This document shows positions 7,993 to 38,531 of a stretch of 64,000 nucleotides of DNA, in pieces. Numbering within the stretch: the stretch's first letter is position 1; every line of letters begins with the position of its first letter. Under the pieces are notes generated by a model, which made no database searches, was not told the DNA's origin, and saw only the letters and a program-made list of their open reading frames with translations. Source of the DNA: Parabacteroides johnsonii DSM 18315. Lineage in GTDB: Bacteria > Bacteroidota > Bacteroidia > Bacteroidales > Tannerellaceae. The stretch spans positions 310,001-374,000 of the forward strand of contig NZ_CP102285.1 of the NCBI RefSeq assembly GCF_025151045.1. Direction: 5' to 3'. Made by a program: the position numbers and the translations under genes.

Positions 7993-8109
7993 GAAAAGAC
8001 TCTATATATTTGTTGATTTTGATTGGCTTAAAGAGCCAAAACTGATTGGAGGGCATATCAATATATATAAGTGAAGTATTGTAGATACAAAAAAAATATA
8101 GACACATAA

Positions 8110-12100: not shown

Positions 12101-13091
12101 ACATGAATACCTATATGTATCATTAATGGCCAGCACCGAAGACGATAAGATAAGTCATTTTTATCAGCTTTTTTCAGAACAAGAGAGCGGAGTTCTGACG
12201 ATAGACTATCTAGCTACTTATCTCCAGTATTTCAGGTCGAATAGTTCCGAACATTACTTGTTAATACTAAAGGCTCTGAGAGATTGTTTTCCTGATCGTC
12301 CAAATGATTTGATTGCATACGTAATATCAGAACGATTCATGATGCGAAAAGACGACCTAGACGAAACTGTTAACATTGTAAAAGAAGCGATGTTAAAGTT
12401 TCAAATAAATAGCAATATGGGACATTTACTATATGACTATAGCCGTCTTCTTGTAGAGACCTTACAATTATGGCATGATGCTGAATTTGCAAAGCAAGTA
12501 AACAGGAAGTTTATCGACTTGTACAACACTCAGATGGTGCATTTAAATACTGAAGGAGTGTTCACAGAATTGTTAAAGGATTATTTCGATGATGTATGGC
12601 CGGAATTTGTTAATGCTTTTTTGGGAACAGATACTTTCTTGTTCTATTTCCAAGTGAAGGATGAGCTGGGGTCTGGGTTTAGCTTTGACAAAGGTCCGCT
12701 ATTTGATATCAACGAAGAGTTAATCAAACAGCTTTGCATAGAGAATCCAGAGTCTGCACCTGCAAGGATTGCCTTAATGGTACCTTGCTTTGAAAAAGAA
12801 GACGATGGAAATGAAAAAGAGTATTTCAATAAATGGATTATCTGGCTTCTGGATAATTTCGGGGAACGAAAAGATGTAAGGGATAATATTTCATCTAATT
12901 TAGGCTCTTTCTCATGGAGTGGTGATATATCCCCATATTACGAGAGGAATATCAAATGTTTTGAACAGTTGTTGGATCATCAAAAACAAGAGGTACGGGA
13001 ATGGGCACAAAAATGTATTAATAACGAAAAGAAGTTGCTTGACATGGAGAAAGATGAAGAGGATTTTAGGAAGATAAGACACGAAATGTAA
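9141..13091 (+). CDS. Trypsin-like protease fused to STAND NTPase (Avs-like sensor)
   Basis: A 1316-residue protein. Residues 1-220 form a trypsin-like serine protease: His44 in TAAH, Asp87 or Asp88 in EDDATVL, and Ser166 in GTSGGG. A STAND-type NTPase follows: Walker A with Lys286-Ser287 (SGMGKS), and Walker B IIIVDD with Asp336-Asp337. The rest, about residues 480-1316, is long and helical with repeat-like character and would be the ligand-sensing region. Avs proteins recognise phage proteins through such C-termini and fire an N-terminal effector. Here protease and sensor are in one chain, with the MBL protein as partner. The assignment to the Avs superfamily is by architecture; the exact type is uncertain and the trigger is unknown. 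Confidence 0.8.
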   Translation: MNLTKANIKALRKVTVKIECSNNNKGSGIIVSVGENLYVLTAAHIIQKDTKDGPLDKEQIGILLKRNSRTFHLTVEEVVYYNKPEEDDATVLRVIKPNGMPTSGLDQVRLLTTDISGQAILCGFHKDDTSLKIYDVVKRGEKSWASTDIQLQFQNLSPKINFEGTSGGGIFYQGTDDVLYMVAYMSEVGRFDGNNNEFICMPSSNYIPSGLLDSIVDSREYTFIADTGVAREVDSRQLLNLLDKSDYNLNQTGYFIENDKTKEIIDQLRDDDTSTLLLTALSGMGKSKLIYEAFKETEREPNRYYTKFNGNRDKLMGELKQILKDNPESDGIIIVDDCPMELVTEIISIRDKYNNLFRLIFAHHDYFNEELERITFPVIKLRPQDMEESIGHYISEALHEDEQNKNDILVIKQLAGGYPQMAIELVKAYKNNKIAGPEDVTHLMPKLLNLTPNKEEEEKKIWQTLSLCLPLPYEDATHEGFAYLLGNNHVTPLNGMEYEERRSIAVRIVTKYHPTLIDIQGKWLYVRPFPLAVWLTAEWFKYVCNSRIHFNELIEDIKKQPPSIQTAISEGFCKHIQQMSGNKEAFKMVGQLVNANIDHPFFDEENLCSGLGSELFLAMSTVNPAAIATHLRRVLGYKDIDWLREQVYGDVRRNIIWALERLCFARESYHDGVFMMARLAVAENEEIGNNATAQLVQLFHIYLAGTEVNLKDRLATLQGLIDERETYIPLTIRCFEAALQNGGFVRIGGAEKFGFENRKDYTPNTWDEIFEYWYGCRDLLLEWINKNPEIVNLLAEMAERKVYNWARTVRKEVFVPLLEKIAELKNYAWDTGYEALFQMVHTFGIDAKSLGIAGLMEKMRNQSFKMQLNEARYIQHGQYRLKDKEQIELSEKLYAPLAAEFIDKEIYANTEEVKALLEDNKYIPIEFVKRLVTTATDEQLGILFDTIFNVLATMPQDFYSPFFGNLSSCAKEKKPLLSFLKRLRDDGHEYLYVSLMASTEDDKISHFYQLFSEQESGVLTIDYLATYLQYFRSNSSEHYLLILKALRDCFPDRPNDLIAYVISERFMMRKDDLDETVNIVKEAMLKFQINSNMGHLLYDYSRLLVETLQLWHDAEFAKQVNRKFIDLYNTQMVHLNTEGVFTELLKDYFDDVWPEFVNAFLGTDTFLFYFQVKDELGSGFSFDKGPLFDINEELIKQLCIENPESAPARIALMVPCFEKEDDGNEKEYFNKWIIWLLDNFGERKDVRDNISSNLGSFSWSGDISPYYERNIKCFEQLLDHQKQEVREWAQKCINNEKKLLDMEKDEEDFRKIRHEM

Positions 13092-13135: not shown

Positions 13136-13173
13136 TGGAAATACGAGACTCTAAATTGAATCCCGTATTTCCA
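13136..13173. terminator. Hairpin between convergent Avs-like and Qat genes
   Basis: TGGAAATACG (13136-13145) and CGTATTTCCA (13164-13173) pair perfectly around an 18-base loop, partly self-complementary. It lies between the stop of the STAND gene and the stop of qatD, where a bidirectional terminator is expected. Confidence 0.5.
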
Positions 13174-13200: not shown

Positions 13201-13890
13201 CTATCTTTTAATAGTATATATAAGGCGGCTAAAATTATCATAAATGACACTTTCTCCCAAACCTATATTTGTTAGAGTATTACTGATTGAGCAAACTTTA
13301 TTAAAAGGGGCATCTGTTTCTGTTAGAATAAGATTACGTGGTATGCGCTTAATTATTTCTATTCCACTATTAGTTTTTGTCATTTTTTCGTTGACAGAAA
13401 AATAATATCCATGTTCTACTATCTTAGGAATTAGAGAGAGAGGACCTGAATACCAATGGAATATTACATTCTTAATGCCATAGGTAATCAGCATTTCGAA
13501 CAAGACTTTTTCAGCTCGTCTGGAATGGACACTTACTATTTTATTTTTTTTACTTAATAGCTGCAATACTTTCTCTAAAACGAAAACTTGATCATCTTTT
13601 GTTTTTAGTCCTTCGTTACTAAAATCTAGACCGATTTCACCAATATAGCTAGTTTTATCTAAACACTGGCTAAATAGTCGTAATTCATTTTTATTTTCGC
13701 TTGCATATAATGGATGAAATCCTAAAGCCAAACGTGAGAACTTATATTGTCTTACATGCTCATAGCCCAATAAAAAATGACTTGGCAGATTTGTCATTCC
13801 TATCGAGATATTCTTTTTTACCTCTTGTTGTTTGAGATACTGTTCAGGATTTGGCATCATGTCAAAATGACAATGGGTGTCTATAATCAT
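13201..13890 (-). CDS. qatD: QatD: TatD-family metal-dependent DNase
   Basis: A 229-residue TatD-like nuclease. Visible metal ligands are DTHCHFD (Asp4, His6, His8), the Glu of GEIGLDF, His in VHSRRAE, His in FHWYSG and Asp in TETDAP. It is the last gene of the qatABCD set and overlaps qatC by four bases. In the described Qat system a KAP ATPase, QatB, a QueC-like protein and a TatD-like protein together give phage resistance; the nuclease is the likely effector. It is slightly shorter than housekeeping TatD (about 260 residues). Confidence 0.9.
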   Translation of the reverse strand: MIIDTHCHFDMMPNPEQYLKQQEVKKNISIGMTNLPSHFLLGYEHVRQYKFSRLALGFHPLYASENKNELRLFSQCLDKTSYIGEIGLDFSNEGLKTKDDQVFVLEKVLQLLSKKNKIVSVHSRRAEKVLFEMLITYGIKNVIFHWYSGPLSLIPKIVEHGYYFSVNEKMTKTNSGIEIIKRIPRNLILTETDAPFNKVCSISNTLTNIGLGESVIYDNFSRLIYTIKR

Positions 13891-15302
13891 ATTCCTGCTC
13901 TTATTTGTATTTCATTTGTAGCTTTTTTCTTAAGCCAATTGATAACTTGTCTGTATGAGTGTAAGGCTAATGATGTATATTCATCTAACTCCTGCTTTTC
14001 TATAATTCCATTAAAGAATAGTTCTTGGCGAATTGTACGTTCATTCATTCTGTTTTTTAGGAAATACAGAAGAGCGTTAAAATCCCTATTCCTTTTTTGA
14101 TGTTTATTGTCAAGATTAAATTTAATGCCATGAAGTACATCAGTGCCAAGCAATGCCTCATTATCTAGACCTATTGTATCTAGTGCGACTCTTCTATATA
14201 AGCATGGCAAACACATACCACAATGTTTGATTTTGGCATTGCGTATTTCTATTCCGCTTTTGTCCCAAAAAACATTGTGACCACGTTTTGCACAAGAGCA
14301 TGATAAGTCAACTAATGATTCTAAAATTGCCTTTTTCGAAGTATCTTGACAGCACTCAAGAACCATGTCTGCTTTTGATTTTAATCGATATGGGTTGTAT
14401 ATTGAGTTTGATATACCTATAGCATATAAAGCCTCCTGTATGCGTTTGATAAAAGTAGGATGCGTAGTTCGAGTACTGCATGAACTCCTTCTTCCACTAT
14501 CAAGAGGTATATTTATTGATATAGTTCCATTCTCTGGAACTATCAATTGACATTGTGGGGATATTTTGTTTGCAATATATATTCCTGCTGCAAAAAATAA
14601 TAAGGAACGTGAGCGGAATGTACTCTCTGTTGGAGTTTTAATATTCCAAGAATGAGGTTTAAGCCCTGCGTTCAGCAACACTTGTTCGTATTTATTCGAA
14701 AAGATATTGTTTTCCCTGCAATATTCTAAAATGCTTTTTTGATCACTATGCTCTTTGCCCAGTTCCATATGTGAAACAAGTAGTATCTTTTTATCAACAG
14801 AGAGAGTGCTGGCCTCATCTATAAATCCAATCAATGAGTCTAAACCTCCTGAAAACAATGCAACCTTTTCAAAAAACTGAGGATCATATTCCTTTACTTT
14901 TTTAGTTGGATTATACGAGTATGAATCTGCCTGTATAAAGTGAATATCCCAATTGTCGCCCGTAAGAAAATTGATTGCTTTATTAAAAGCTTCACGACCT
15001 TTATTCATATCCTCAAGATTTATTACAGGAACATTCAATAATATCAAGTTTCGTTTCCATCCATCATCTGAATTAGACAAACGAAGTACAGCTCTGTCCA
15101 CATTATATACAATCATGGATAAAACTAATAAATCAAAAGCAACAGATGATGTATCTCGTGAAAACTCCCATAACTGTTTGGGATTAAACTTTGTGTTGAC
15201 AGAATGAATTTTTCCGTCACTTCCTTGAAATGAAAGAGTAAAAAGGCCAAAAACTTCGCTTGTTTTTGACGGAGTATAATTAATGTTTATTCTTGTTTCC
15301 AT
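13887..15302 (-). CDS. qatC: QatC: QueC-like PP-loop protein
   Basis: A 471-residue protein. After an N-terminal extension of about 140 residues specific to Qat proteins comes a QueC-like PP-loop ATP-binding motif SGGLDS at residues 151-156. Near the C-terminus a cysteine cluster (SCSCAKRG, then KHCGMCLPC) resembles the zinc site of QueC, the 7-cyano-7-deazaguanine synthase. In Qat systems it is thought to modify a partner protein or nucleotide; the actual substrate here is not shown. It overlaps qatB by 16 bases and qatD by four, so all are translated together. Confidence 0.9.
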   Translation of the reverse strand: METRININYTPSKTSEVFGLFTLSFQGSDGKIHSVNTKFNPKQLWEFSRDTSSVAFDLLVLSMIVYNVDRAVLRLSNSDDGWKRNLILLNVPVINLEDMNKGREAFNKAINFLTGDNWDIHFIQADSYSYNPTKKVKEYDPQFFEKVALFSGGLDSLIGFIDEASTLSVDKKILLVSHMELGKEHSDQKSILEYCRENNIFSNKYEQVLLNAGLKPHSWNIKTPTESTFRSRSLLFFAAGIYIANKISPQCQLIVPENGTISINIPLDSGRRSSCSTRTTHPTFIKRIQEALYAIGISNSIYNPYRLKSKADMVLECCQDTSKKAILESLVDLSCSCAKRGHNVFWDKSGIEIRNAKIKHCGMCLPCLYRRVALDTIGLDNEALLGTDVLHGIKFNLDNKHQKRNRDFNALLYFLKNRMNERTIRQELFFNGIIEKQELDEYTSLALHSYRQVINWLKKKATNEIQIRAGI

Positions 15303-16036
15303 ATATCCAATATTTCTGATGTTAAAGAATCCAGGTATTCTTTTCCTTCTCGGCTATTGAAGTCGATTTGAGTTAGTTCTTTGCTTAACTTCTCATCTAG
15401 TTCGTTATGAAGCCAACCTCTCATGTCCTTCTTTATTTCTTCGGGATTACTCCCTTTGTCAAATATGTGGCTTTGAAATAATTCTGCAGAATATTCCAGT
15501 ATGTATTCAATTTCAAATGTTATAATCCATTCATGAAGATCGTCATCTGTTGCATTCTGAAGTTTATCTTCAATTTCTTGTCCGTCTTTACAATCTGACA
15601 AAATATCATTCAGCACTTTATCCATTGCATAAGTTGCTGCTGCATCATCCATTGTAGAATCATTGTCTCCAATGATCTCGTGCAAAAGCAATTCCTTGAA
15701 ATCATGTGGCGTTTTCGGCTTTTGTGTATCAGGCAGTCTATCAATGCCTAAACTTGATACAAGTCCATATTGTTTAATATTGTTTAAAACAGTAGCCAAC
15801 CCTCTGACTGCATGTCCACCAGCACGTCCAAACGAACTGCCGCCTCTCTTACCTCCATGCCCTCCAATTCTGCCACCCCTATACAAACCATTGCCGAGCG
15901 CTATTCCTAAATTACCAAAAAACTTTGCATTTGAGGCAGGCTTATTGTCTGTTCCATTTGCTAGACTCGTCATGGCTCGTTTTGCTGCAGACCAATTAGG
16001 CGAAGATTTCAAATTATGTGATTGTGATGTACCCAT
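15287..16036 (-). CDS. qatB: QatB: Gly-rich component of the Qat system
   Basis: A 249-residue protein with the typical QatB opening MGTSQS, a glycine/basic-rich segment at about residues 45-80 (LYRGGRIGGHGGKRGG) and an acidic helical C-terminal half. No enzymatic motif is visible. Position between qatA (five bases away) and qatC (overlapping) supports the assignment. The N-terminal Gly-rich tail may be a target for the QueC-like partner; that is an inference. Confidence 0.8.
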   Translation of the reverse strand: MGTSQSHNLKSSPNWSAAKRAMTSLANGTDNKPASNAKFFGNLGIALGNGLYRGGRIGGHGGKRGGSSFGRAGGHAVRGLATVLNNIKQYGLVSSLGIDRLPDTQKPKTPHDFKELLLHEIIGDNDSTMDDAAATYAMDKVLNDILSDCKDGQEIEDKLQNATDDDLHEWIITFEIEYILEYSAELFQSHIFDKGSNPEEIKKDMRGWLHNELDEKLSKELTQIDFNSREGKEYLDSLTSEILDIWKQE

Positions 16037-16041
16037 ATTTA

Positions 16042-17874
16042 TTATTTTTGAATTTTTCGTTCGATAGCTTTTGTTAAAGGGTTCGCTTTTGGCAAACTAT
16101 TTATATAGTTATGTATCTCATTGCTTAATGAAAGCATTCTAACAAAAAATATATCCGCTTTTGTATCTATATCTTCGGTCTTTATATTACTGAATAATAA
16201 TTTTAATCTGTCTATTTTGTCACCAAATAATAAATTATTCTCATCGCAATTAAGTATTCTCCAACAATTTTCTGACTTTGGATCTTTTCTTAGGTTATCA
16301 TTAATCAAGTGAATAATCATGTCTTTTTCTGAATCATCGCAAGCATTAATAATTCCAGGCAAATCTCGCTTCATCATACTGTTTGTTTGCAAGGTACATA
16401 ATCTTCGGAATAACAGCATGACTTTGTTTGTAACCAACGAAGCTATTGGTTTTTCATTTTTCAAAGCATCTCGTGCTATCCAGAAGTAGTTTTGTAAATT
16501 TATATCTTTTAATGACGGATCTGAGCTTAACCATTGCCTCAAATAATCTGACGACCAGTTGTCTTTCCATTGTGGATTTTGAATACCATTTTCAGTTTTT
16601 GCTTCTTGCTCAACATCATCCAATGGCAAAACACCTCCATTTGCATTTTGAAGTTTATAAAGTTCTTCAAAACGAGAATTGTACAGTGTGTTGTACTCCA
16701 ATACCATTAGTTTGGTTAATACTTCAGGGCGTATATCTGTAAAACCTGCTACCTCAGCTAACTCTTGACGTACATATAAGGTATTTAGAAAACGTTTTAG
16801 TTGTCGTGGATTACCATTTAAAAAACGCTTAATAAGAGGTACAGTTGGTAAACGATATTCTACTGCATGAAAATCAATTTTTTTATCTTTGGAAATATTT
16901 GCTTTGATGTCATCTATATTATATTTGGAATGCTTGTCTGTTTTTCTGAACTCCAAATATTTCTGATGTATTTCATTAAAGTAGATATCATTTAAATGAT
17001 TTTTGCATAGAAGAAGTGTGATATAAGTCTCTTGCTCGTTGTCAGACAAACGTGGCAGTTTGTATGGTAGCTGAATGAGTTTTTCCAAATAGTCTGAAAA
17101 TGGACTGGATATATCTTCTTTCTTCATTTGAATAGGATAATGCTGACTAATAGCATATTCAATAATACGTTCATCTGCACCAATGATAAATGCGGTTTTC
17201 CTTACATTTACAAACAACTTGACGGCCTCCAGGCAACCAATAATTCTTTTGGGTTCACATCTATCCAAATCATCAATATAGACAACAACAGCCTTATATC
17301 CCATATCGTCAACCAATTCATCAAAGAGTTCTCTGAATGTTGCGATAAATTTTGATGTATTACCTTTTGCTACATCTTTAAGTAGATTGTTGTATTTATC
17401 CTTGTTTGTTATCTTATCAAGGTCTTCCTTTGTTGGCAACCATTTCTTCAGCCAATCAGGAGTGAGATTTTCATAGGCTTTCTTCAAGATAAATACGCCT
17501 GCTTTCAAAAAGTTGATTCGCTCGAGCAAATCATCTACCCGTTCAAATACATTTTTTCGCTTATTAATATCTTTGTCAAGTGCTTCTAATATACTTTCTA
17601 TCATTGTCAGTTTTGTTGAGTCATAGCTTTCAAACTGCCAACTATTAAAATACACTTGAAGTATAATCTTACAACCCTTTTCATGTTGAGATTTTTCCCA
17701 TTCATGCAAGGACTTTTGAAGCAATAGCATCAAACTACTTTTTCCAGATCCCCAATTTCCAAATACCCCTATGGAAATGGGTAACATATCATCATTCAAA
17801 ATTATTTTTTTGAGTAAATCTGCATGGACCTGATAGCCAAGCAAATCTTGCGTTGTTTCATTATCTGACCACAT
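16042..17874 (-). CDS. qatA: QatA: KAP-family P-loop ATPase
   Basis: A 610-residue KAP NTPase. The Walker A motif GNWGSGKS has Lys45, and the Walker B strand VVVYIDDLDRC near residue 200 has the KAP-type DDLDR. The protein is otherwise soluble-looking, without the membrane inserts of some KAP proteins. It starts the qat set but lies only 23 bases after the stop of the HerA-like gene, so it is probably transcribed from the upstream type III R-M promoter unless an internal promoter exists in that short gap or in the upstream gene. Confidence 0.9.
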   Translation of the reverse strand: MWSDNETTQDLLGYQVHADLLKKIILNDDMLPISIGVFGNWGSGKSSLMLLLQKSLHEWEKSQHEKGCKIILQVYFNSWQFESYDSTKLTMIESILEALDKDINKRKNVFERVDDLLERINFLKAGVFILKKAYENLTPDWLKKWLPTKEDLDKITNKDKYNNLLKDVAKGNTSKFIATFRELFDELVDDMGYKAVVVYIDDLDRCEPKRIIGCLEAVKLFVNVRKTAFIIGADERIIEYAISQHYPIQMKKEDISSPFSDYLEKLIQLPYKLPRLSDNEQETYITLLLCKNHLNDIYFNEIHQKYLEFRKTDKHSKYNIDDIKANISKDKKIDFHAVEYRLPTVPLIKRFLNGNPRQLKRFLNTLYVRQELAEVAGFTDIRPEVLTKLMVLEYNTLYNSRFEELYKLQNANGGVLPLDDVEQEAKTENGIQNPQWKDNWSSDYLRQWLSSDPSLKDINLQNYFWIARDALKNEKPIASLVTNKVMLLFRRLCTLQTNSMMKRDLPGIINACDDSEKDMIIHLINDNLRKDPKSENCWRILNCDENNLLFGDKIDRLKLLFSNIKTEDIDTKADIFFVRMLSLSNEIHNYINSLPKANPLTKAIERKIQK

Positions 17875-17897
17875 TTTATACTCTTAAATTAAATTGT

Positions 17898-19484
17898 TTA
17901 TATCAAGTGTGTCACATTAATTTTCTTATACTTATTCCCCATGCCAAGGGCAAAAGCCATCTGGTCTTTTATAATCAGCTCACCCTTTTGAAGTCCGGCT
18001 ATAGCAGTTCTGATTTCTTGAAGTTCTTGACCACTCACGCCAAACAAGTCTTTGATGACCTTATCATCAATAGTCTGCTGCTTCATAATAAGTGGGTATT
18101 GTGCATTGGCATAAAAATCAAAACCTTTTGATTTGAAGCTACTCATGTTCTGAGTGGCAAGGATAATACTCAGACCTTTATTTCGGCCTACAGCAATTAG
18201 ATTACGCAGAGGGCGATTGTCAAAGTCAAGCATATAGTGAGCTTCATCAATAATAGAGAAATGACGTATTTGTACTACTTCATCATTCACTGCTTGTTTA
18301 TCCAATAACTCATAAATGTTATTAAGTTTAGACATCAGGAAATACACAATAGCTTTGGCTATAGGGCCATCTTTTGGATATCCATCCATCTTGATGATGT
18401 AGCTGTCATCAATCAAAGAAACTTTATCTTCTGATTCAAAGATATGCGCATTAACCAATTGCTTCAGAACAGAAGAAATACTATCATCATTATTTGCATC
18501 TTTCATTCGTGATTGATAGCATTTCAGCATTAATTCAAATGAAATAGGGGCGCCATTTGTCGATTTATAGGCTTCTACAATAGCTTCACTAAGACGATTG
18601 TTCATGTTGGCACTCGCACTTACTCGGTCTATGGAACATAAAGCAGAAGACATTTCTGTAGAGTACAGATTGATTTCATTGATAGAACGCCCAGTGAAAT
18701 CCTTAAATGGAGTAAAAGGCAATGGCTGTGTCAATGGATCCAGAATACAAGAACGGTCCACATCGAAAAGTGATAACCAATGGTTATTCTGTATATCGCT
18801 GAACTCTCCTTTGTAATCAAACAAAAGGAAGTTCACGGGATATTGTGATTCTGTGGATAACATTCTGAATTGCTGAATCAAAACAGCCAGCAAATTAGTC
18901 TTTCCAGATCCTGTAGCTCCCGCAATGATAATCTGTGAGTTGGTAATGGAACGACTGTTTATGTCCAAAGTCGCTTCCATTTCTTCATCACCATAGTTGC
19001 CAATCAGAAGATTCAGCACTGGAATATCTTTTGTTATGGCTACTTTGTTGTTCATAGCGTATAAGAAGGAATCCAGATTGTTGTCAGACATCAGATAGTC
19101 ACGTCCACGAAGCATTTCTGCTGCGATAATTCGAGAAAGAGTAGCGTTTTGAGTCCAATCAATATTCAAGTCTGCATATCTTAGCTTTAACAATGCTGAA
19201 TATAAGGTACTTAAATCATGCATCGTGAAAAAACTTGGTATGATTCTGGCTGATGACACTGATAGCTGTATATCCTTATAATCATCTATGGAACGTTTTG
19301 TAGGCAAACTTAGTCCCACGATGAAGCAGATACGCATTACCTTATTCTGATTCAAGTTTATACGTTTCTCCCGATCAGCTGTTCTGGAAAGATTGATTTT
19401 TGATTCAATCAGTTCCTTGATTGGATTGATTGCGTCAAACAATCCTTCCATCTGGCGCGTATTTGAAAAATTTATGATGCTCAT
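17898..19484 (-). CDS. HerA-like DUF87 ATPase
   Basis: A 528-residue FtsK/HerA-superfamily ATPase: Walker A GATGSGKT at residues 189-196 (Lys195), Walker B in HFSIIDEAHYML near residue 418, and a sensor strand IILATQNMSSF. HerA-type ATPases form hexamers that move DNA and often work with nucleases in defence (for example DndH-like or HerA-Sir2 systems). The preceding gene is an SMC/DndD-like ATPase with a five-base gap. The pair resembles a DNA-translocating, end-processing machine attached to the type III R-M genes. No nuclease domain is seen in this protein. Confidence 0.8.
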   Translation of the reverse strand: MSIINFSNTRQMEGLFDAINPIKELIESKINLSRTADREKRINLNQNKVMRICFIVGLSLPTKRSIDDYKDIQLSVSSARIIPSFFTMHDLSTLYSALLKLRYADLNIDWTQNATLSRIIAAEMLRGRDYLMSDNNLDSFLYAMNNKVAITKDIPVLNLLIGNYGDEEMEATLDINSRSITNSQIIIAGATGSGKTNLLAVLIQQFRMLSTESQYPVNFLLFDYKGEFSDIQNNHWLSLFDVDRSCILDPLTQPLPFTPFKDFTGRSINEINLYSTEMSSALCSIDRVSASANMNNRLSEAIVEAYKSTNGAPISFELMLKCYQSRMKDANNDDSISSVLKQLVNAHIFESEDKVSLIDDSYIIKMDGYPKDGPIAKAIVYFLMSKLNNIYELLDKQAVNDEVVQIRHFSIIDEAHYMLDFDNRPLRNLIAVGRNKGLSIILATQNMSSFKSKGFDFYANAQYPLIMKQQTIDDKVIKDLFGVSGQELQEIRTAIAGLQKGELIIKDQMAFALGMGNKYKKINVTHLI

Positions 19485-19489
19485 TTCTT

Positions 19490-21490
19490 TTACTGATTAA
19501 GAGTTAAACCAAAATAACCGTCTTCAACCGTAGTATTCTGTGCTTCTACATTGCGATGAAGTGTATAGGTTTTGGAAATAAACGGTTCCAGTTTGATGTA
19601 GTCGCTGTCTGTTCTGATTTCAGAGGTCGTACAAAGCAAAATCGTTTGTTCTGCCAATTGTGGAAAATATTCTTCCATCAAGGCATCACGACTTTCATTA
19701 TCAAGAACACCCATTACTGTATCAATCATTACAGGTGGATTATAATCTCCCAGGTTTCGCAATACTTTCAATAAAACCTGGATGAAGATTTGTTTGGATG
19801 CAGCATTAAGCTGATTCAATGAAATCTCATTTCCGGCAGTATGATAGAGTTTTATATTGAATTGTTCAATGCTGTCGGACAACTCAACTTTGGCTACATG
19901 ACCTTTATATGAAACCAGTAACTTGTTGAGTTGCTGTTGCATTTCACTTTCAATCTGGGCTTTTTTCTTCTTCAGCAAACTGTCTGCAATCTTTTCAAAC
20001 AGAGGTTTAAGCTTGACCAAAGTGTCGAATTTAATATCAGGTTCTTGCTGGATTTGTACATCAAACTGATGAATCCGTTTCTCAAGACGTTGAATGTCTG
20101 CTTTCAGAGCCGCTTCCTGACCTTTCAGTTTCTCTATCTGTTTTTGAGCGGCTTCATAATTTTGAATTAGATATTCATTACCACCGGCCTGTGTTTGTTC
20201 CAAGGTCTGTTTTTGCGAACGTAAGTTATCCAACGTGGAAAGTTGAATTTCCAGTTCCTGGCGTTGGCGGTCAAGTGCAATGAACTGATTGGAGCCAGTT
20301 CTTTTTACCAAGTTGGATAAAGCGGTTACTTCCGCTTCGTCAAGATAACCAAAAGGATCTTCTTTATTAGTACTATTTTGGATAGCTACAATATGAGATA
20401 CAACCTGTTCTTCATCCACAGATTCACTGCATAGTGACAAATCTTTTAAGTAAGTTATAATTTTATTTGTCACGTCTTTCAATGTCTCCAACGGATAAGC
20501 ACCAGTATTCTCTTTCTGAAGTTGTTCCTTTATGTGGAGGATATTATTGATTTCTTGTGCCAGGTTCGAAGCTAATTTAGGTAAGAATAAATCAATTTCT
20601 ATGTTATCAACAAATGCTTTCAAGTCCTCAGCATACGTTGCTGCACGTTTTACAATATCGTCAATTTTACTGGCAAGTTCCTGTATCTTCTTATTAAGGG
20701 CAGATGCTTCTTGGGCACCGTCTTTTGCCCGTTTATATTCCACTTCTACCGACGCAAGATACTTATATTTTGTATCTTGTTCCGCTATACACGTATTTAA
20801 GTCTGCGGTCAGTTTGTCTTTTTGTGCGCATAATTCATTATATTCCTGTGCTTCTTTTTCTGCTTCAAGACGTTGCTGTGCCCATTCTTGCTGTAGTTTT
20901 TCAGCAGCACGCTTTAACTGAAGGTATTTTTTGAAGCCCAACACATTCTCAAAATTATCACGAATGGTTTGGGCAAATACATTTTTCTTCAGCAATTCAC
21001 TCGATTGCATTGCATCAAACAGGAAATACTGGCTCAGTTCCTGAGGCAGATTAGCTTTGATGATTTTATTGATTTCCTGTTCTGCTTTTACCCGGTCTTT
21101 GGGAGCAGTCATTGTACCGTAAACATACATGTTCCCGTTCATGTTCAGCGATACGCTTTCCAATGGCTTGCCTTGCGGATTTAACTGATAAACACGCTTT
21201 AATATGTACTTCTGTTGCTGGCCGAGTACTTTCCCTACAAATGTTATTTGTAAGGAAATCTCAGGTTTGGCTGTATTTAAGGCTCCCTGATTGAGCAATT
21301 CCATGAAATGCTCTTTGTTTTCAATTTTCAAACCATAAAGAGCTCCGCTTATGGCCTCGAATAAAGTAGTCTTACCGCCACCATTTGCACCGCCAATCAG
21401 AATAATAGGGCGATCGTCATCGACTGTCAAATCCAGATCAAGTGACAAGTAAGTCTTATAATTGCTTATTTTAATTCTCTGTATCAGCAT
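19490..21490 (-). CDS. DndD/SMC-like coiled-coil ATPase
   Basis: A 666-residue ABC-type ATPase of the DndD/SbcC/RecN group. The N-terminal Walker A GGANGGGKTT (Lys40) follows MLIQRIKISNYKTYLSLDL. A long coiled-coil centre spans about residues 190-500. The C-terminal half-site has LNAASKQIFIQVLL (signature region) and VMIDTVMGVLDNESRD (Walker B). In phosphorothioation operons DndD acts with DndC and DndE, but no DndC sulfurtransferase gene is present here, so sulfur modification is not expected. It is flanked by a 72-residue gene upstream and a HerA-like ATPase downstream. Confidence 0.8.
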   Translation of the reverse strand: MLIQRIKISNYKTYLSLDLDLTVDDDRPIILIGGANGGGKTTLFEAISGALYGLKIENKEHFMELLNQGALNTAKPEISLQITFVGKVLGQQQKYILKRVYQLNPQGKPLESVSLNMNGNMYVYGTMTAPKDRVKAEQEINKIIKANLPQELSQYFLFDAMQSSELLKKNVFAQTIRDNFENVLGFKKYLQLKRAAEKLQQEWAQQRLEAEKEAQEYNELCAQKDKLTADLNTCIAEQDTKYKYLASVEVEYKRAKDGAQEASALNKKIQELASKIDDIVKRAATYAEDLKAFVDNIEIDLFLPKLASNLAQEINNILHIKEQLQKENTGAYPLETLKDVTNKIITYLKDLSLCSESVDEEQVVSHIVAIQNSTNKEDPFGYLDEAEVTALSNLVKRTGSNQFIALDRQRQELEIQLSTLDNLRSQKQTLEQTQAGGNEYLIQNYEAAQKQIEKLKGQEAALKADIQRLEKRIHQFDVQIQQEPDIKFDTLVKLKPLFEKIADSLLKKKKAQIESEMQQQLNKLLVSYKGHVAKVELSDSIEQFNIKLYHTAGNEISLNQLNAASKQIFIQVLLKVLRNLGDYNPPVMIDTVMGVLDNESRDALMEEYFPQLAEQTILLCTTSEIRTDSDYIKLEPFISKTYTLHRNVEAQNTTVEDGYFGLTLNQ

Positions 21491-21498
21491 AATCGTAT

Positions 21499-21717
21499 TT
21501 ATTGACGTATTTTTTGGATTGCATTACGGATGATGTCTTCCGTTTCATTATCACTCATTTCTATCACGTCAACCTTCTTGGCATGATAGGCCTTCAGAAT
21601 ATCTTCACTTAACCAGTCAAAATCTACACCTTCCGCTTCACAGATTGCTTCTATCATAGCTAAATCATCTTTGCGGATGCCGTAGTGAACAAATTTCGGA
21701 TCTATACCTTTAGCCAT
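21499..21717 (-). CDS. Small conserved-context protein between Res and SMC-like ATPase
   Basis: A 72-residue acidic protein (MAKGIDPKFVHYGIRKDDLA at the N-terminus) that is predicted to be helical, with no metal-binding or catalytic motif. It starts five bases after the res stop and ends eight bases before the SMC-like gene, so it is a genuine operon member. By position it recalls the small DndE subunit beside DndD, but no sequence match to DndE can be claimed. It may be an adaptor for the ATPase. Confidence 0.65.
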   Translation of the reverse strand: MAKGIDPKFVHYGIRKDDLAMIEAICEAEGVDFDWLSEDILKAYHAKKVDVIEMSDNETEDIIRNAIQKIRQ

Positions 21718-21722
21718 AATCT

Positions 21723-24068
21723 TTATGCGTTTTCAGGATAAAAAGCATCCCAGTTTAACAAATCAGTAGTATTCTCAATAGGTAGTTTGGAATATAGCCA
21801 GTTACTTCCATCTTGAATGATAACTCCTCCATAAAGAGGTGTATCTTTAGTTGAATATTCCTGGCTATATTGCAACAAGGCATTATGTTTCTCCGGAGCA
21901 GTTACATCACTTCCGGCACTTTTCGTATCGAAAAGATATACATGTCCATTCTTCATACGGATAACAAAATCAACGTAAAATAAAGATTTTCCGTATGCAA
22001 TGGCATAATGTTGTTTTCCTTTGTCCCCATTCTTATACCACCAGTCAATCCATTGTGAATGTTCTTCCAAATATTTCACAAATTCCTTCTCTGGATTAGA
22101 AGCTTCGTTAAGTTGTACGAATGGCAACAAAGCATGATTTTTTGCAGTCTCAATATGGTTGGTTTCACTGTCATAGACTCTTTCTTCCGGAACTTCCCAG
22201 TTGTATTGTTTTAATTCTCTGGCAGCGGCAGATCTTCTTTTCGCATGTTCTCTTTTACGGGCGTATGTTTCTAAGGCCATGTCCAGCAAACGGTCAAACT
22301 TTGGTTTGTTATCATAATAAAGGACTACCTTTTTTGCATCAGTATCGAAGACTCCAAAATAGTCAGCAAGCATTTCAAGCAGGTAGTTGGCTATTTTATC
22401 AGCTCTACCTTTACTCTCAAATTGATGTCCTTTACCGCTTATATATGCCATAAATACGCGGTCTATTTCAGATGCTTTACGGGCAAAGCGCACTTGATCT
22501 ACTTTCAATATCTGTTCTTCATTCTGGAAGTGTACATCTTTCGGAATCTCCACATTGATTGTCTTGACATCCAAACGAATTGAATTCTTTACCCGTCTTC
22601 TGTTTTCATTTACTAAATCGTCATCACTTTCCGGCAACGGAGTAAATTCAGCATTATCATTTCTTAAGGTGGCCAATTCTGCGATAGAAAACAAGCCGGC
22701 ACCTCTTTCCAGTTTCCAGAATTCATCTGCTACTTCATACAATGTTTTCTTGAAGTCTGGCCCCAAATAATTTCGTTCCACATTAGGACGTTCTGAATAG
22801 TAAGCCGGTAGAGACACATTCTCAAGATTTTCACGTCTGCATGCCGTAATTGTATTTTTCAGGATATAGTCAGAGTCGGCTGTGACAATCTGAATTTTAT
22901 CTTTTGCAATATCGGTATAAACATAACCGATATTAAGCTGTTCTTTCGGATAATGTTTCTGTTCCGGCATTCTCAGAATACGTCCTACGGTTTGTATTGT
23001 AAACTGGTCGCTTTGCAATTTTCTGAAGATCAAAAGAACAGCTGCACGAGGGCAGTCCCAACCCAAAGCAATTGCTTCTTTGAATAGCAATACTTGCGTC
23101 ATATTATCGGGACGTTCCAGTCCGGCGAGATTCTCTTTTTCGTTGGCGAGCCATACGGCCAATAATCCATTTTCGGCGGTTATCCCGCATATAGCTTCCA
23201 AATAGGTTTTCACCTGTTCTGCGATAGCTTGATCTTCCGAAGTCATGGTTTCCTTCACATCGTTGGGCAGCTGGATAAGTAATAGGGGATTGATTTTGAC
23301 GCCCAATTCCTGATAAAGCTCAGCCAACTGATTACGTTTTGCCAATGCCGCCTTAATCAGATTTTCGTTCAGTGTGCGTTCTTCACTGAAATCCAGTTCT
23401 ATATCCGGATTCAGCACGACTTCTTTCTTAATCATTTCAGCCGCAATAACATCCTGTCGGTAAACTTTTACTTTTTCATCAGGATGAAGTGTCTTGGGAG
23501 TGGCCGAAATACGCAGTTCCACAGCCGGATTGATACGTTCCAGCACTGCTGCCGATTTATCGGCAGTTTTTGACCAAAACATGTGTTCCTCGTCTATGAT
23601 GGCAACAATGGGCAAATCGTATTCTTCTTGTGTCCGTCGTGCAATTTCATACAAAGAAGCAAAGCTTTCGTTTTCGCGTACCATGACATTACTTTCTTTG
23701 TTCACACTTTCCCAGTTGACAAACAATATTTCTCCAGATTGTATGCCTTCACTCTGGTCAATCTCGTCAAACATTACAGGCCGAAGTTTCCGTGTTTCGC
23801 CAAAGGCATTCTTTAAGCTGACATAACTTTGCAGGTGAAGTTTACGAGGTGCAAACCAAATATAGGCAACTTCCTGATAACGGCTGTCACCACGTTCTTT
23901 CAATTCGTCGGTAATATTTGCCAAAGCCTGACAGGTCATGACCGTTTTTCCCGCACCTGTTGGCGCTTCACACACAATTTTGTGTCGTTTGCCACCGAGG
24001 TTTAACAGACGGATTGTTTTATCGGTCAGTTCATTGACAGCGTTCTGTTGGTATGGTATATTTTTCAT
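21723..24068 (-). CDS. res: Type III restriction-type helicase/nuclease (Res)
   Basis: A 781-residue SF2 helicase-nuclease. Motif I is APTGAGKT (Lys41), motif II is IIDEEH, motif III is RISATP, and motif VI is QTVGRILRMPEQ. A C-terminal PD-(D/E)XK-like site is visible as VDFVIRMKNGHVYLFDTKS near residue 710. This is the Res subunit layout of type III R-M enzymes, which translocate or slide from unmodified sites before cutting. The gene overlaps rhuM by four bases. Res is somewhat shorter than the classic 900-1000-residue subunits such as EcoP15I, but all key motifs are present. Confidence 0.85.
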   Translation of the reverse strand: MKNIPYQQNAVNELTDKTIRLLNLGGKRHKIVCEAPTGAGKTVMTCQALANITDELKERGDSRYQEVAYIWFAPRKLHLQSYVSLKNAFGETRKLRPVMFDEIDQSEGIQSGEILFVNWESVNKESNVMVRENESFASLYEIARRTQEEYDLPIVAIIDEEHMFWSKTADKSAAVLERINPAVELRISATPKTLHPDEKVKVYRQDVIAAEMIKKEVVLNPDIELDFSEERTLNENLIKAALAKRNQLAELYQELGVKINPLLLIQLPNDVKETMTSEDQAIAEQVKTYLEAICGITAENGLLAVWLANEKENLAGLERPDNMTQVLLFKEAIALGWDCPRAAVLLIFRKLQSDQFTIQTVGRILRMPEQKHYPKEQLNIGYVYTDIAKDKIQIVTADSDYILKNTITACRRENLENVSLPAYYSERPNVERNYLGPDFKKTLYEVADEFWKLERGAGLFSIAELATLRNDNAEFTPLPESDDDLVNENRRRVKNSIRLDVKTINVEIPKDVHFQNEEQILKVDQVRFARKASEIDRVFMAYISGKGHQFESKGRADKIANYLLEMLADYFGVFDTDAKKVVLYYDNKPKFDRLLDMALETYARKREHAKRRSAAARELKQYNWEVPEERVYDSETNHIETAKNHALLPFVQLNEASNPEKEFVKYLEEHSQWIDWWYKNGDKGKQHYAIAYGKSLFYVDFVIRMKNGHVYLFDTKSAGSDVTAPEKHNALLQYSQEYSTKDTPLYGGVIIQDGSNWLYSKLPIENTTDLLNWDAFYPENA

Positions 24069-25150
24069 TGTTTTCTTCCTTTTTTATTCTCTAAGTTTTT
24101 CTTTTCTATCTCTTTCATTTCCAGTAGGAAACGGTCATAATCAGATAAAAATAACTGATCTTGTATGATTCTGTACTTTTCAAATTCCGTTTCTGCATGC
24201 AAACGTGCAATTTCAGCAGTCACACGTCCGGCATCATTAAGAAGACCGTATTCAAAGAGATTGATAAAACTGTTCAAACGCTGTTCCCAGTCGGCCATAG
24301 TCAGAGGAATGTGACGCAAAGTCATTGATTCTGCAAAATCCAGATAGGCAGTAACCATGCGTTGAAGTTGTCCCATTTCTGTATCTGACAAATAATTTTT
24401 AGCTATCACTACATCGCTTTTCCGTATTTTCCCATCAGGAGCATCAGCCCATGTAGTCAATCCCATGTGTTCTTTTGTGGCATCTGCACGTTCTACAATG
24501 AGTTCCGCTGCAGTATGTCCATGAACAGCATAGTGCATCTTATTCTGTACTGTAGCATAAAAACGTCGAGTAGCCAATGCTGTCTTGTCGTAGTCTACGG
24601 CTGTTGCATATAAATCCGTTATTTTTTGATAGAACAAACGTTCACTGGCGCGTATCTCACGGATACGTTCCAGTTGTTCATCAAAATATTTATCAGTAAG
24701 AAAAGTTCCGCGCTTCAATCTTTCCGAGTCCATAACCCACCCTTTAATGGTGTACTCTTTGGCTATTCCATTTACCCATTTTCTGAATTGTACGGCCTTT
24801 TCTGAATTAACCTTGAAACCAACAGCAATAATCATTTCCAATGAATAATGATTTGTGTTATACTGTTTCCCATCCGGAGCAGTTATTCGAAATTTTCGAA
24901 TAACTGAATCTGCTTGCAATTCACTATCTGCGAATATCTTTTTGATATGATAATTGATGGTATGTACTTCTACACCATATAGTGCTGCCATCAGTTTCTG
25001 GGTGAGCCAAATGTTTTCATCTTCGTAGCGTATTTCTATTTGCTGTTCATCATTTCCCACGCATGCCACATAGTTCAAGTATTCTGCTGCACTGCTGCGT
25101 ACAGTTACTTGCTCTTTTTTCTTTTTATTCTTATCTGACTGCTCTTTCAT
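24065..25150 (-). CDS. rhuM: RhuM-family protein
   Basis: A 361-residue member of the RhuM family, recognisable from WLTQKLMAALYGVEVHTINYH, VIRKFRITAPDGKQYNTNHY, LEMIIAVGFKVNSEKAVQFRKW and the C-terminal HAAxELI-like region. An HTH-like N-terminal domain is probable. RhuM proteins frequently sit inside R-M operons, but their activity is not established. Here four-base overlaps with both mod and res imply coupled translation, so it is probably a complex subunit or regulator, not a bystander. Confidence 0.85.
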   Translation of the reverse strand: MKEQSDKNKKKKEQVTVRSSAAEYLNYVACVGNDEQQIEIRYEDENIWLTQKLMAALYGVEVHTINYHIKKIFADSELQADSVIRKFRITAPDGKQYNTNHYSLEMIIAVGFKVNSEKAVQFRKWVNGIAKEYTIKGWVMDSERLKRGTFLTDKYFDEQLERIREIRASERLFYQKITDLYATAVDYDKTALATRRFYATVQNKMHYAVHGHTAAELIVERADATKEHMGLTTWADAPDGKIRKSDVVIAKNYLSDTEMGQLQRMVTAYLDFAESMTLRHIPLTMADWEQRLNSFINLFEYGLLNDAGRVTAEIARLHAETEFEKYRIIQDQLFLSDYDRFLLEMKEIEKKNLENKKGRKQ

Positions 25151-26958
25151 GCTTCCTCCTCATCTGTAAAGTTCAACATTCCATCAAACAGGTCTTTATC
25201 TTTTTGAGTGGTTGCCAGAGCATCATCTTCCGGCATAACGACGGCATCCTTTTTCTTGGGCAAAATTCTGCGGTAAGTATTGTAGATAGCTTGTGGCAGA
25301 GCGCAGAGTTCTACTTTATCGCTGACGTCGTCAAACGAACCTTCCCAAGGGTCTTCACTGGGTGAGAACACATAAACCTTTATTGGTTGGGTTATATCCA
25401 AATCATAGATTATATCAACCAACTCATCGATGGCTTCTTCACGATAAATTACAAGCATCTGTTTTTTCCCATTATCGAAATAGCGGAAGATACCTTTATA
25501 GGTTTTCTGACCTCCAAAGGTATTTTGTTCCGTATAAAGGTCTTCTTTGATACAAAGCATATCTGTAGCAAGATTTACCAGTTTTCGCATATTTTGCATA
25601 GAGCGGTTGCGACCAACAAATCCGGTACGATAGTAACGGAGATTATTCTTTGTTAAACCAGTTACCTCTTCGCCTTTTGAGTTTGTATAACCTTGGATCA
25701 CTCGTTTGTTTCGTTCGTAAGTAACTTCTTCACAGATATTGTTTTCATTATTAGTAACAAGAATACATTGGCGATGGCCTCCATCTTCTACATTCAGTTG
25801 CATAGTGGCGTGGAGAGTTGTTCCGCTACCTGCGAAGAAATCAAGTATAATTGAGTGACTACTATTTGCAAGCCCTAGTATTTTACGTATTAAATCTGTT
25901 GGCTTAGGTGTGTCAAATTTTTTTGACTCTAAGATGTTTTTGAGTTCTATTTGAGCTTTTTTGTTCCCTTCAATATCTTGCCAGAAATTTGATGGTCTTT
26001 TAACTTTATTTTCTGAATAAAATTTGTAATATACCTTCCATTCGTTATTTTTATCTTTTTTAAAATATAGGAGATTATCTTTCTTCATTTGTTCTACTTT
26101 CTTAGGTCCTACTCTCCATCTACTTTCGTAACCTGTAGGCCCATAAGGAAAAACCTCACTTCCATCTGGAGCAATAATAGGGAAAAACATTGTAGGCCTA
26201 TCTTCTCTTCTATCTTCTCCACCTGTTCTTCTTAATTGTAAGATCGAAAAGAAGCCTCTTTCATCTGATAATGAATATCTTTCAAGATCTTTTTCTGTAA
26301 GCGGAATGCCACTAATAACATAGTTGTTTTTTGATGAATACACTAATATGTAATCACAAGCTTTACCTAAACTTCCTGTATCTTGACCTGTTGTTGTTCC
26401 AGTTGCTCTAGAAATCATACCAACAAAATTGTTATTAAAGATCTCATCACATAGTAATTTTAATTGTGCCTGTTCATTATCATCAATAGAAATAAAAATT
26501 ACCCCATGTTCAGACAACAACTTCTTTGCTATTTTTAGCCGTCGGCTCATAAACGACAACCACTTAGAATGGCGATAAGAATCTTCTTTATCCACATAAC
26601 TGTCGTTATAGATAAAATCTTTATTTCCTGTATTATATGGAGGATCGATATAGATTACATCGATTTTCCCTTCATGTGTATAAGCCAAGGTAGCAAGAGC
26701 TTCCAAGTTATCTCCTTCAATCAGAATATGGTTAGGGGCATTTTTATCATTACTAATTATGGCACGTTCCGGCACCTCTGTCAAGATGGGCAGTTCATCG
26801 CGAAGACGTTCTTCTACGTCCTCTGGCTTATCTTCCCATACCAGACCATAAGTTTTATTCTCTCGTAGCAAACCTAACAGGGCACTACGTTCCTTATCGG
26901 TCAGTCCTTCTAAAGTGTTGATACGTTTTATAAGATTGGCTCTATCATTACTGTTCAT
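25147..26958 (-). CDS. mod: Type III-type N6-adenine DNA methyltransferase (Mod)
   Basis: A 603-residue beta-class adenine methyltransferase: catalytic DPPY at residues 105-108 precedes the SAM-binding FAGSGTT near residue 370. The variable segment between them (about 150-340) would be the target-recognition domain. It provides self-recognition for the Res subunit and perhaps for the downstream SMC/HerA genes. It starts 14 bases after the XRE regulator stop. The target sequence cannot be read from the protein. Confidence 0.9.
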   Translation of the reverse strand: MNSNDRANLIKRINTLEGLTDKERSALLGLLRENKTYGLVWEDKPEDVEERLRDELPILTEVPERAIISNDKNAPNHILIEGDNLEALATLAYTHEGKIDVIYIDPPYNTGNKDFIYNDSYVDKEDSYRHSKWLSFMSRRLKIAKKLLSEHGVIFISIDDNEQAQLKLLCDEIFNNNFVGMISRATGTTTGQDTGSLGKACDYILVYSSKNNYVISGIPLTEKDLERYSLSDERGFFSILQLRRTGGEDRREDRPTMFFPIIAPDGSEVFPYGPTGYESRWRVGPKKVEQMKKDNLLYFKKDKNNEWKVYYKFYSENKVKRPSNFWQDIEGNKKAQIELKNILESKKFDTPKPTDLIRKILGLANSSHSIILDFFAGSGTTLHATMQLNVEDGGHRQCILVTNNENNICEEVTYERNKRVIQGYTNSKGEEVTGLTKNNLRYYRTGFVGRNRSMQNMRKLVNLATDMLCIKEDLYTEQNTFGGQKTYKGIFRYFDNGKKQMLVIYREEAIDELVDIIYDLDITQPIKVYVFSPSEDPWEGSFDDVSDKVELCALPQAIYNTYRRILPKKKDAVVMPEDDALATTQKDKDLFDGMLNFTDEEEA

Positions 26959-26972
26959 AACATTACTTGGCT

Positions 26973-27236
26973 TTACTGTTTTTGAATTCTGACTAACTGA
27001 ACATCGTCGCGTGTAGAGTTCAGCAGTTCTTTAATATCTACATCCAGAACACGTGCTATCTCCAACAGTGTTTCTAGTCCGGGTTGTGATGTGTTTGTAC
27101 ACCACTTTGATACCGTGGCAGGGTCCTTGCCCAATTGTTCGGCCAACCATTTGTTGGTCCGCTTCTTCTCCACAAGAACAACCTTGATGCGGTTTATGTC
27201 TTTTTCTTTTTCCATAAGGATTTTCTTTCGTTCCAT
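26973..27236 (-). CDS. XRE-family regulator heading the type III R-M/Qat operon
   Basis: An 87-residue protein with a compact Cro-type helix-turn-helix (RIKVVLVEKKRTNKWLAEQL, then DPATVSKWC). An alternative start at 27212 gives 79 residues and fits the domain equally well. It is the first gene of the eleven-gene run and resembles a control (C) protein for R-M expression. The divergent Gabija genes begin 191 bases away, so it might regulate both directions. Confidence 0.8.
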   Translation of the reverse strand: MERKKILMEKEKDINRIKVVLVEKKRTNKWLAEQLGKDPATVSKWCTNTSQPGLETLLEIARVLDVDIKELLNSTRDDVQLVRIQKQ

Positions 27237-27364
27237 GCAAAGATAAGAAAGCCTATCTATTTTTCATCATTTCAATAGGACTATTTGCAATATAAATTGC
27301 GAATTAGTTCAATATTATGCCAAATTATATAGGAAATTTATTCTTTAGTATAGTTGAATATCAT

Positions 27365-27372
27365 TACATTTG
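27365..27372 (+). promoter_or_regulatory. -7 element (TACATTTG) of the Gabija genes
   Basis: TACATTTG matches TAnnTTTG, 55 bases upstream of gajA, in the 191-base A+T-rich divergent spacer. The -33 element is not clear. Confidence 0.45.
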
Positions 27373-27427
27373 CATATAAGACAGAAACTTAAGTAAGTTT
27401 TGATTAAAAATTAAAATTTAAGCTATA

Positions 27428-29665: not shown

Positions 29666-29666
29666 G

Positions 29667-36486: not shown

Positions 36487-36518
36487 TTTGTTATCAATTT
36501 AATTTAGTGAATACCAAA

Positions 36519-38478: not shown

Positions 38479-38531
38479 TATATTAGAATAATTGAAAACA
38501 ATAATCAGGACACATATAAAAATTGATTATT

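Follow-up and report, generated by a model that had tools for sequence, protein, structure and literature searches.

We analysed a 64,000-nucleotide stretch of the genome of Parabacteroides johnsonii DSM 18315 (positions 310001-374000 of the single 4,749,455-base contig NZ_CP102285.1; hereafter the window), in which a run of predicted defence genes occupies the minus strand from 27236 to 13201. When the window's open reading frames were rechecked, all eleven members of the run were open and stood in the order XRE, mod, rhuM, res, sp, dndD-like, herA, qatA, qatB, qatC and qatD (Table 1). The recomputed distances, negative where genes overlap, are 14 nt for XRE/mod, -4 for mod/rhuM, -4 for rhuM/res, 5 for res/sp, 8 for sp/dndD-like, 5 for dndD-like/herA, 23 for herA/qatA, 5 for qatA/qatB, -16 for qatB/qatC and -4 for qatC/qatD. 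Gaps therefore span 5-23 nt and overlaps 4-16 nt, just as a preliminary description of this DNA, made from its letters alone, had reported for eleven minus-strand genes.

Table 1. Genes and candidate signals of the minus-strand run, in window coordinates.
Feature	Position	Strand	Basis
Candidate operator, inverted repeat GCAAT-N4-ATTGC, GCAATTTATATTGC on minus strand	27287..27300	.	Repeat search
Candidate -7 promoter box TATCTTTG, Bacteroides TAnnTTTG type	27238..27245	-	Consensus scan
XRE/Cro-type regulator	26973..27236	-	HTH_3 1.3e-10; listed at 87 aa, with 27215 the likelier start (80 aa)
mod, type III DNA methyltransferase	25147..26958	-	PADLOC MTase_III 4.6e-101; PDB Mod 6k0w 2.6e-52
rhuM, RhuM-family protein	24065..25150	-	PF13310 9.8e-105
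res, SF2 helicase with C-terminal nuclease-like pattern	21723..24068	-	REase_III 3.4e-17; ResIII 1.6e-13
sp, 72-aa Sp-DndD small protein	21499..21717	-	PF20306 Sp-DndD 2.7e-12
dndD-like coiled-coil ABC ATPase, 666 aa	19490..21490	-	DndD 2.1e-62, full length
herA, HerA/FtsK-clade ATPase like the DndH C-terminal domain	17898..19484	-	DndH 1.6e-28; PDB DptH 7es4 3.8e-11
herA/qatA junction, 23 nt	17875..17897	-	Aligns with neither set of relatives
qatA, KAP NTPase	16042..17874	-	PADLOC QatA 3.1e-85; NCBIfam QatA 338.4 bits
qatB, MGTS...PxW protein, 249 aa	15287..16036	-	MGTS invariant in 12/12 aligned QatB
qatC, QueC-like enzyme	13887..15302	-	NCBIfam QatC 304.2 bits (cut-off 280); PADLOC QatC 8.3e-87
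qatD, TatD-type nuclease	13201..13890	-	PF01026 2.9e-39; QatD 1.2e-49
Candidate terminator hairpin, 16-pair stem	13136..13173	-	51-nt segment 13130-13180 folds at -26.2 kcal/mol

All catalytic motifs searched for in the run proteins were present. Mod has DPPY before FAGSG, the order of type III N6/N4 methyltransferases. Res (781 aa) carries GAGKT, DEEH and QTVGRILR motifs and the pattern D700-x13-DTK; its best REase_III model covers residues 155-393 only, and a PDB search returned no matching chain. The product of sp, to which the preliminary description gave no name, belongs to a Pfam family (PF20306) described as a 'small protein found in certain Dnd DNA modification systems'. Residues D6, F9, H11, G13, R15, D18, W35 and L41 are invariant in an alignment of 30 Sp sequences, and the predicted structure is all-helical, with four helices and no strand (mean pLDDT 83.5). 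We considered whether Sp is DndE, a ribbon-helix-helix protein, and rejected this because the model is all-helical and no PDB fold matched it at E<=0.001. The next protein, called SMC in the preliminary description, contains GANGGGKT, scores 187.5 bits against TIGR03185 (under its cut-off of 245.85), had no match in the PDB search, and has neither C.C nor C..C, so that no CxC hook is present; it is better named a DndD-clade ATPase. The HerA-like protein (528 aa) carries GATGSGKT and IDEAH, and matches the DndH model at positions 1335-1700 of 1715 only.

We compared the run with the best 80 of 83 herA relatives, which gave 78 distinct loci that were scored with the window proteins; loci and genomes are cited below by L and G numbers. 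Among the matches listed, the loci come mostly from Bacteroidota; Ignavibacteria, an Opitutales and a genome labelled Clostridium are also represented. Phocaeicola coprophilus supplies the best match, at 99%. Counting was restricted to the 57 loci with at least 6.5 kb upstream of herA, and in 52 of these mod, res, sp and the dndD-like gene precede herA on the same strand. The five lacking the full core are L038, L064, L067, L068 and L071; nothing of the core was matched in L064 and L071, and these two, like L068, are distant from the window (HerA identity 47-51%). Because the 72-aa gene encodes Sp-DndD and 52 of 57 relatives keep mod, res, sp and dndD, we conclude from these comparisons that genes 2-7 form a single conserved core, mod-(rhuM)-res-sp-dndD-herA. 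Its order, identical in many relatives, is beyond chance, while the spacing of the run is ordinary for such loci. The earlier division into a type III restriction-modification (R-M) module and an SMC/HerA module must thus be given up, since both belong to this one core.

Within the core, rhuM is optional, being present in 6 of the 57 loci, between mod and res in L003, L004, L005 and L007 and between res and sp in L055 and L059; it is absent in L002/G004. RhuM of L003, L004 and L007 is 92-93% identical to that of the window, far above the flanking Mod (52-62%) and Res (74-75%), and RhuM also follows XRE-headed large genes elsewhere (L159, L164), so that it seems to move separately, as an independent mobile add-on. 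The core itself looks mosaic, because L032 and L033 share 83% identity with the window in Res but 62-63% in the DndD-like protein. In G004 (L144 7754-18498) the dndD-like gene is split by an insert of ~10.7 kb whose flanks overlap by 6 bases, like a target-site duplication.

The order qatA-B-C-D, together with KAP, QueC-like and TatD proteins, identifies the last four genes as a Qat system. QatA lies under the NCBIfam equivalog cut-off of 600 bits, and QatC matches PDB QatC 9vlk (1.4e-41). QatB, which matched no family model in profile searches of the run proteins, starts with MGTS and carries PxW.

Gene order, protein families, recurrence in relatives and the coordinates of the herA/qatA junction were all observed directly, and at this junction DNA similarity changes to the base. 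The window is 95.1% identical to Phocaeicola coprophilus locus L002 over 6206 nt, up to and including the final base of the herA stop codon (17898), and similarity to G004 ends at the same base. On the other side, the window matches the qat genes of G015, a genome of the same genus, at 86.3% over 4717 nt, from 17874 (the A of the qatA start codon) to 13198, 3 nt past the qatD stop, and the match to the qat genes of Segatella copri DSM 18205 (77.4%) begins at the first base of qatA. In G015, qatABCD (85-91% protein identity) stands 2 nt behind brxL of a complete BREX operon, in the order XRE-156aa-BrxA-B-C-PglX-PglZ-BrxL-qatABCD, whose XRE is 70% identical to that of the window; this BREX system is presumably of type I by gene content, and a search of the G015 genome gave no herA match. 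The S. copri qatABCD genes come from a plasmid record of 167 kb, and the 650 nt preceding them contain no gene on the same strand. Genes for an AAA ATPase, a UvrD-helicase and a NACHT protein lie near them (L165 20252-32093), perhaps as another defence cluster. When plasmids were searched with the whole run, the only matches were Qat in S. copri and 71 nt of a methylase in Glaesserella. Because the similarity shared with qat genes from other hosts sets in precisely at the start codon of qatA, Qat appears to be a ready-made unit that was plugged in, and the block likely moves as an exact gene-level unit, a swappable second layer.

Among 38 genomes of the genus, QatA (E<=1e-30) was found in the window's genome, G015 and G009 (interrupted), and herA in the window's genome, G004, G034 and G024. 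At 1e-30 or better, QatA occurs in 6 of 123 family genomes and 7 of 393 order genomes (the window's is counted in both), which with S. copri brings the census to 13 loci. Four of these have Qat behind a modification-based system: the window, G015 (BREX), G107, where a type I restriction-like protein overlaps QatA by 35 nt as called, and G161, where type I R-M genes plus a Ppl-like gene lie 223 nt from Qat. Elsewhere Qat has AbiH-like and Septu-like genes (G365) or a ThsB-like gene (G223) upstream, or stands behind a DnaK-like gene recognised by eye (G081). It is alone in G307 and S. copri, interrupted or fragmentary in G009 and G070, and at contig ends in G463 and G283.

A tblastn search at 1e-6 found no Qat set in the 78 other listed herA loci (66 with 600 nt or more of sequence beyond herA), and on this ground we rejected Qat as a fixed partner of the core. 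The first gene after herA in the 66 loci is on the same strand within 60 nt in 30, on the same strand further away in 23 and on the opposite strand in 13. Pairwise comparison of the 68 loci with at least 400 nt downstream (2278 pairs) gave 481 pairs in which the final 90 nt of herA are 75% or more identical. In 472 of these the following 400 nt were unrelated by blastn (mean identity 81% over the 90 nt before the herA stop and 49% over the 90 nt after it), and in the remaining 9 they were related. The recognised tails include GmrSD-like (L002, G004), GajA-like (L003), PDC-S58/ApeA-like (L030), ZorA (L041), ZorB (L042, a related tail), PDC-S72 (L033), PDC-M04A (L012) and PDC-S60 (L011) genes, together with third-position genes for PD-Lambda-5 (L039) and PDC-S27 (L065). 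The tail of L015 encodes a KAP NTPase of the PDC-S20 family that is 23% identical to QatA and is not Qat. A PADLOC scan of some tail genes from each of 19 loci gave matches at <=1.2e-15 in 12, and none or weak ones in 7 (L017, L025, L048, L058, L059, L060, L061).

The regulator at the head of the run has relatives (E<=1e-12) in 41 of 123 family genomes, and 20 of the listed hits were fetched for their downstream context. One heads the same core (L145), one BREX (L158) and one GajA (L161); five precede type I R-M (L149, L154, L156, and L157 and L160 via similarity to another locus only), three precede other methyltransferase operons (L146, L150 weakly, L152 by Mod similarity) and two a large protein plus RhuM (L159, KAP-like, and L164). 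No downstream system was recognised for five (L147, L148, L151, L155, L162), and two are cut by contig ends (L153, L163). By these contexts the XRE head is widely shared among defence operons. The window's own genome holds a second relative of the head (66% identity; G000:C1:108298-108492, L162), before ~10 tight same-strand genes.

Bacteroides promoters carry the -7 consensus TAnnTTTG together with a -33 element at a set spacing. The only TAnnTTTG box on the minus strand between XRE codon 8 and the divergent gajA gene is separated by a single base from the first XRE ATG, and because of this closeness the true XRE start is likely codon 8. The inverted repeat upstream has 1 exact match in the window against 0.16 expected from shuffling. 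The same or nearly the same repeat, 85-94 nt before XRE codon 8, occurs in 6 of 45 XRE upstream sequences (the window, L002, G004/L109, L003, L005 and L033), all six of which carry the mod-res-sp-dndD-herA core. In consensus scans, the 569 nt that precede qatA in the window contained no TAnnTTTG box, in agreement with the earlier remark that the run leaves no space for an internal promoter, and neither did the 1000 nt upstream of G015 qatA, whereas the stand-alone S. copri qatA has one at -68. This box pattern favours read-through from the core into qatABCD. The candidate terminator hairpin sits between qatD and a convergent gene for a 1316-aa protein. Given the candidate -7 box ahead of XRE and the hairpin beyond qatD, the run is likely one transcription unit under the small XRE regulator.

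Parts of the run resemble known systems. As in EcoP15I-like type III R-M, the run's Mod matches solved Mods (6k0w, 7dsu, 4zcf) and an SF2 Res-like protein lies downstream, but the REase_III match of Res is partial and the run continues into sp-dndD-herA. With the Dnd and PbeABCD (CxC) systems (PMC10853773) the run shares a DndD-clade ATPase, a small protein and a HerA/FtsK ATPase related to DndH/DptH. It differs from them in having a type III Mod in place of the phosphorothioation genes, and profile searches of the 11 run proteins gave no match to DndA, DndC, DndE, DndF or DndG, so that genes for DndC/DndA sulphur chemistry are lacking. Furthermore, its DndD-like ATPase has no CxC zinc hook, its HerA is a separate protein whereas DndH of DndFGH is a long multidomain protein with an REase and a C-terminal HerA, and its small neighbour of DndD is Sp-DndD where DndE adjoins DndD in Dnd loci. 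The tail has the four genes of Qat in order, with KAP, MGTS/PxW QatB, QueC-like QatC and TatD proteins (PMC13279940), yet it is attached behind another system and has no -7-type box near qatA. BREX loci with auxiliary or backup effectors (PMC12839542) likewise have a core that works by methylation, to which effector genes are added within the operon or next to it, but here a complete four-gene system forms the tail, and the same tail follows two different cores. One family of BrxR/WYL regulators co-localises with many unlike defence systems (PMC9122601); the XRE protein here (~65-90 aa) is too short for an added WYL domain. An R-M controller (C) protein is a small XRE protein that has an operator at its own promoter and controls the restriction gene; here an inverted repeat lies near the candidate promoter and is shared by 6 of 12 core-bearing relatives.

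Backup effectors in BREX and Dnd loci are already published, while the literature searched contained no account of this core with tails that are whole systems. PMC10853773 treats DndD/CxC systems and describes how cytosine methylases serve as replacements and how HerA is captured, as well as backup effectors; in its available text 'adenine methyltransferase' occurs once, and RhuM, Qat and Bacteroid- are absent. The available text of PMC12839542, on auxiliary and backup effectors of BREX, mentions neither Qat nor QueC. PMC13279940 describes the QatBC mechanism and reports that QatBC alone defends against some phages, that the N-terminal MGTS and the PxW of QatB are needed for function, and that QatA binds DNA. 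A search of the open-licence literature found no description of this core, nor of Qat as the tail of a BREX or type III operon.

Taken together, these results make it probable that the eleven genes are a composite defence operon, in which a core predicted to be methylation-guarded is followed by an independent second layer, Qat, that is reached by read-through. We infer its transcription and function, as well as the direction of transfer. Acting at the inverted repeat (27287-27300), XRE would repress the promoter of its own gene and so set the level of the whole run. Mod would mark host sites, and Mod-Res would cut unmarked DNA after ATP-driven scanning. The DndD-like/HerA-like pair, restrained by the small Sp, would clamp and pull invading DNA as a second attack at the level of DNA. 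QatC would modify the MGTS end of QatB, and Qat would act regardless of the methyl mark, so that phages blocking or evading the restriction core would still meet Qat. The preliminary description had joined two normally separate defence modules into one unit, and this is supported, head to tail and with a likely single transcription unit; its suggestion of a single control protein is plausible. The same description would have taken independent occurrence of the halves as evidence against the union. Independent occurrence is what we find as regards a fixed partnership, with no Qat match in the 78 other listed herA loci and with Qat behind BREX or alone. The presumed operon structure is not contradicted in this way, the junction being gene-exact and no -7-type box being seen near it.

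Several observations weigh against a composite operon. The stand-alone G307 qatA (L140) has no TAnnTTTG box in the 300 nt upstream, which weakens the promoter test and makes the -7 box a weak guide. Eight such boxes lie inside the run, one of them within qatA at 17804, and the candidate XRE promoter shows no -33 match at the expected spacing. The hairpin downstream of qatD has no T run and was missed by the terminator scan, which requires one. The repeat is missing in 6 of the 12 core-bearing XRE upstream sequences (L004, L110, L012, L032, L059, L074), and as a general XRE operator it is weakened by this and by its scarcity among the 45. Among the genomes searched, herA is followed by qat only in the window's own. 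Finally, same-strand genes within 60 nt are as common after other large genes of the same loci (86/226) as after herA (Fisher p=0.32), so that we rejected short same-strand gaps as proof of a special 3' slot. Because of the G307 counter-example and the operator count, we lowered our confidence in this reading, and in the wider one given at the end, and raised it for the alternative that follows.

In that alternative, ordinary defence-island packing, Qat landed in the same direction behind herA and is transcribed from a weak promoter of its own that lies within herA; its position there would mean nothing for function. The background spacing after herA, the absence of Qat matches from the 78 other listed loci, the solitary Qat of S. 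copri and G307, and sigma-70-like matches inside herA all agree with it, although such matches on both strands of the region (64 against 52.1 expected, sd 7.7) are near the shuffle rate and uninformative. Packing sits poorly with similarity borders that coincide, base for base, with the stop of herA and the start of qatA, and with G015, where the Qat set follows brxL by 2 nt and a related XRE stands at the head; a random landing would rarely spare both frames without added intergenic DNA twice. We consider it unlikely, though less so than the two explanations below.

In a fail-safe coupling, inhibition of the restriction core by a phage would release Qat or raise its level, with XRE or RhuM as the sensor, much as the PrrC nuclease is released upon inhibition of type Ic R-M. 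Such a role would accord with the backup effectors proposed for BREX and Dnd loci (PMC12839542, PMC10853773) and with the recurrence of XRE and RhuM in such operons; against it, Qat is also retained where no such core precedes, and we hold it improbable. Least probable by our estimate is a functional coupling in which the DndD/HerA machine or Mod marks DNA for Qat or delivers it, the two halves working in several steps as one system and sharing self-recognition. Both KAP proteins and HerA proteins are ATPases that handle DNA, the order is fixed in the window's genome on one likely transcript, and a KAP NTPase also follows herA in L015. The reported DNA binding of QatA points the same way (PMC13279940). 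Nevertheless, near-identical Qat is kept behind BREX and alone, and the sufficiency of QatBC for some defence (PMC13279940) speaks against a dependence on the core. The shared modification-based self-recognition proposed in the preliminary description accordingly finds no support, there being no conserved Qat-core partnership, and the search it had called for, of other genomes with the same herA-qat order, gave none among the listed loci.

Further defence genes flank the run. A Gabija pair (GajA 8.6e-249, GajB 1.9e-219) at 27428-31499 diverges from XRE across a shared 191-bp intergenic region (27237-27427). The gajA -7-type box starts at 27365, and since the XRE operator candidate lies between the gajA and XRE boxes, XRE might also affect Gabija. 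On the other side, 7672-13091 holds an XRE-type gene, a metallo-beta-lactamase-fold gene (LmuA 1.9e-71, Avs1a 1.2e-36) and the gene for the 1316-aa protein convergent with qatD, which has a weak trypsin-like N-terminal match; by these matches the segment looks like an AVAST/Lamassu-type pair. An Mrr-type restriction gene (36507-37364) and a gene for a PDC-M11A protein (6.2e-144, weak EVE match; 38523-39581) follow Gabija, and the defence island seems to extend to ~41 kb of the window.

The proposed composite operon offers a base-resolved case of how layered immunity may be assembled, with one and the same four-gene Qat system occurring on its own as well as downstream of BREX and of a type III-DndD-HerA core. 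Together with a separately encoded HerA, Sp-DndD and DndD are steady partners of type III R-M, where the role of the DndD/HerA motors can be tested without phosphorothioate chemistry. More tentatively, and as a possibility we would not yet call probable, methylation-based operons of Bacteroidales may in general consist of a small XRE head, one of several interchangeable cores (type III-DndD-HerA, BREX or type I R-M) and, at the 3' end, a port for whole promoter-less systems that are swapped at exact start and stop codons. If so, the port would serve Qat, Zorya-type, GajA, GmrSD-like, ApeA-like and PD-Lambda-5 systems. Were the tail a real expression port, new defence genes would be discoverable downstream of such cores, and the dosage of two layers of immunity would rest on one small regulator.

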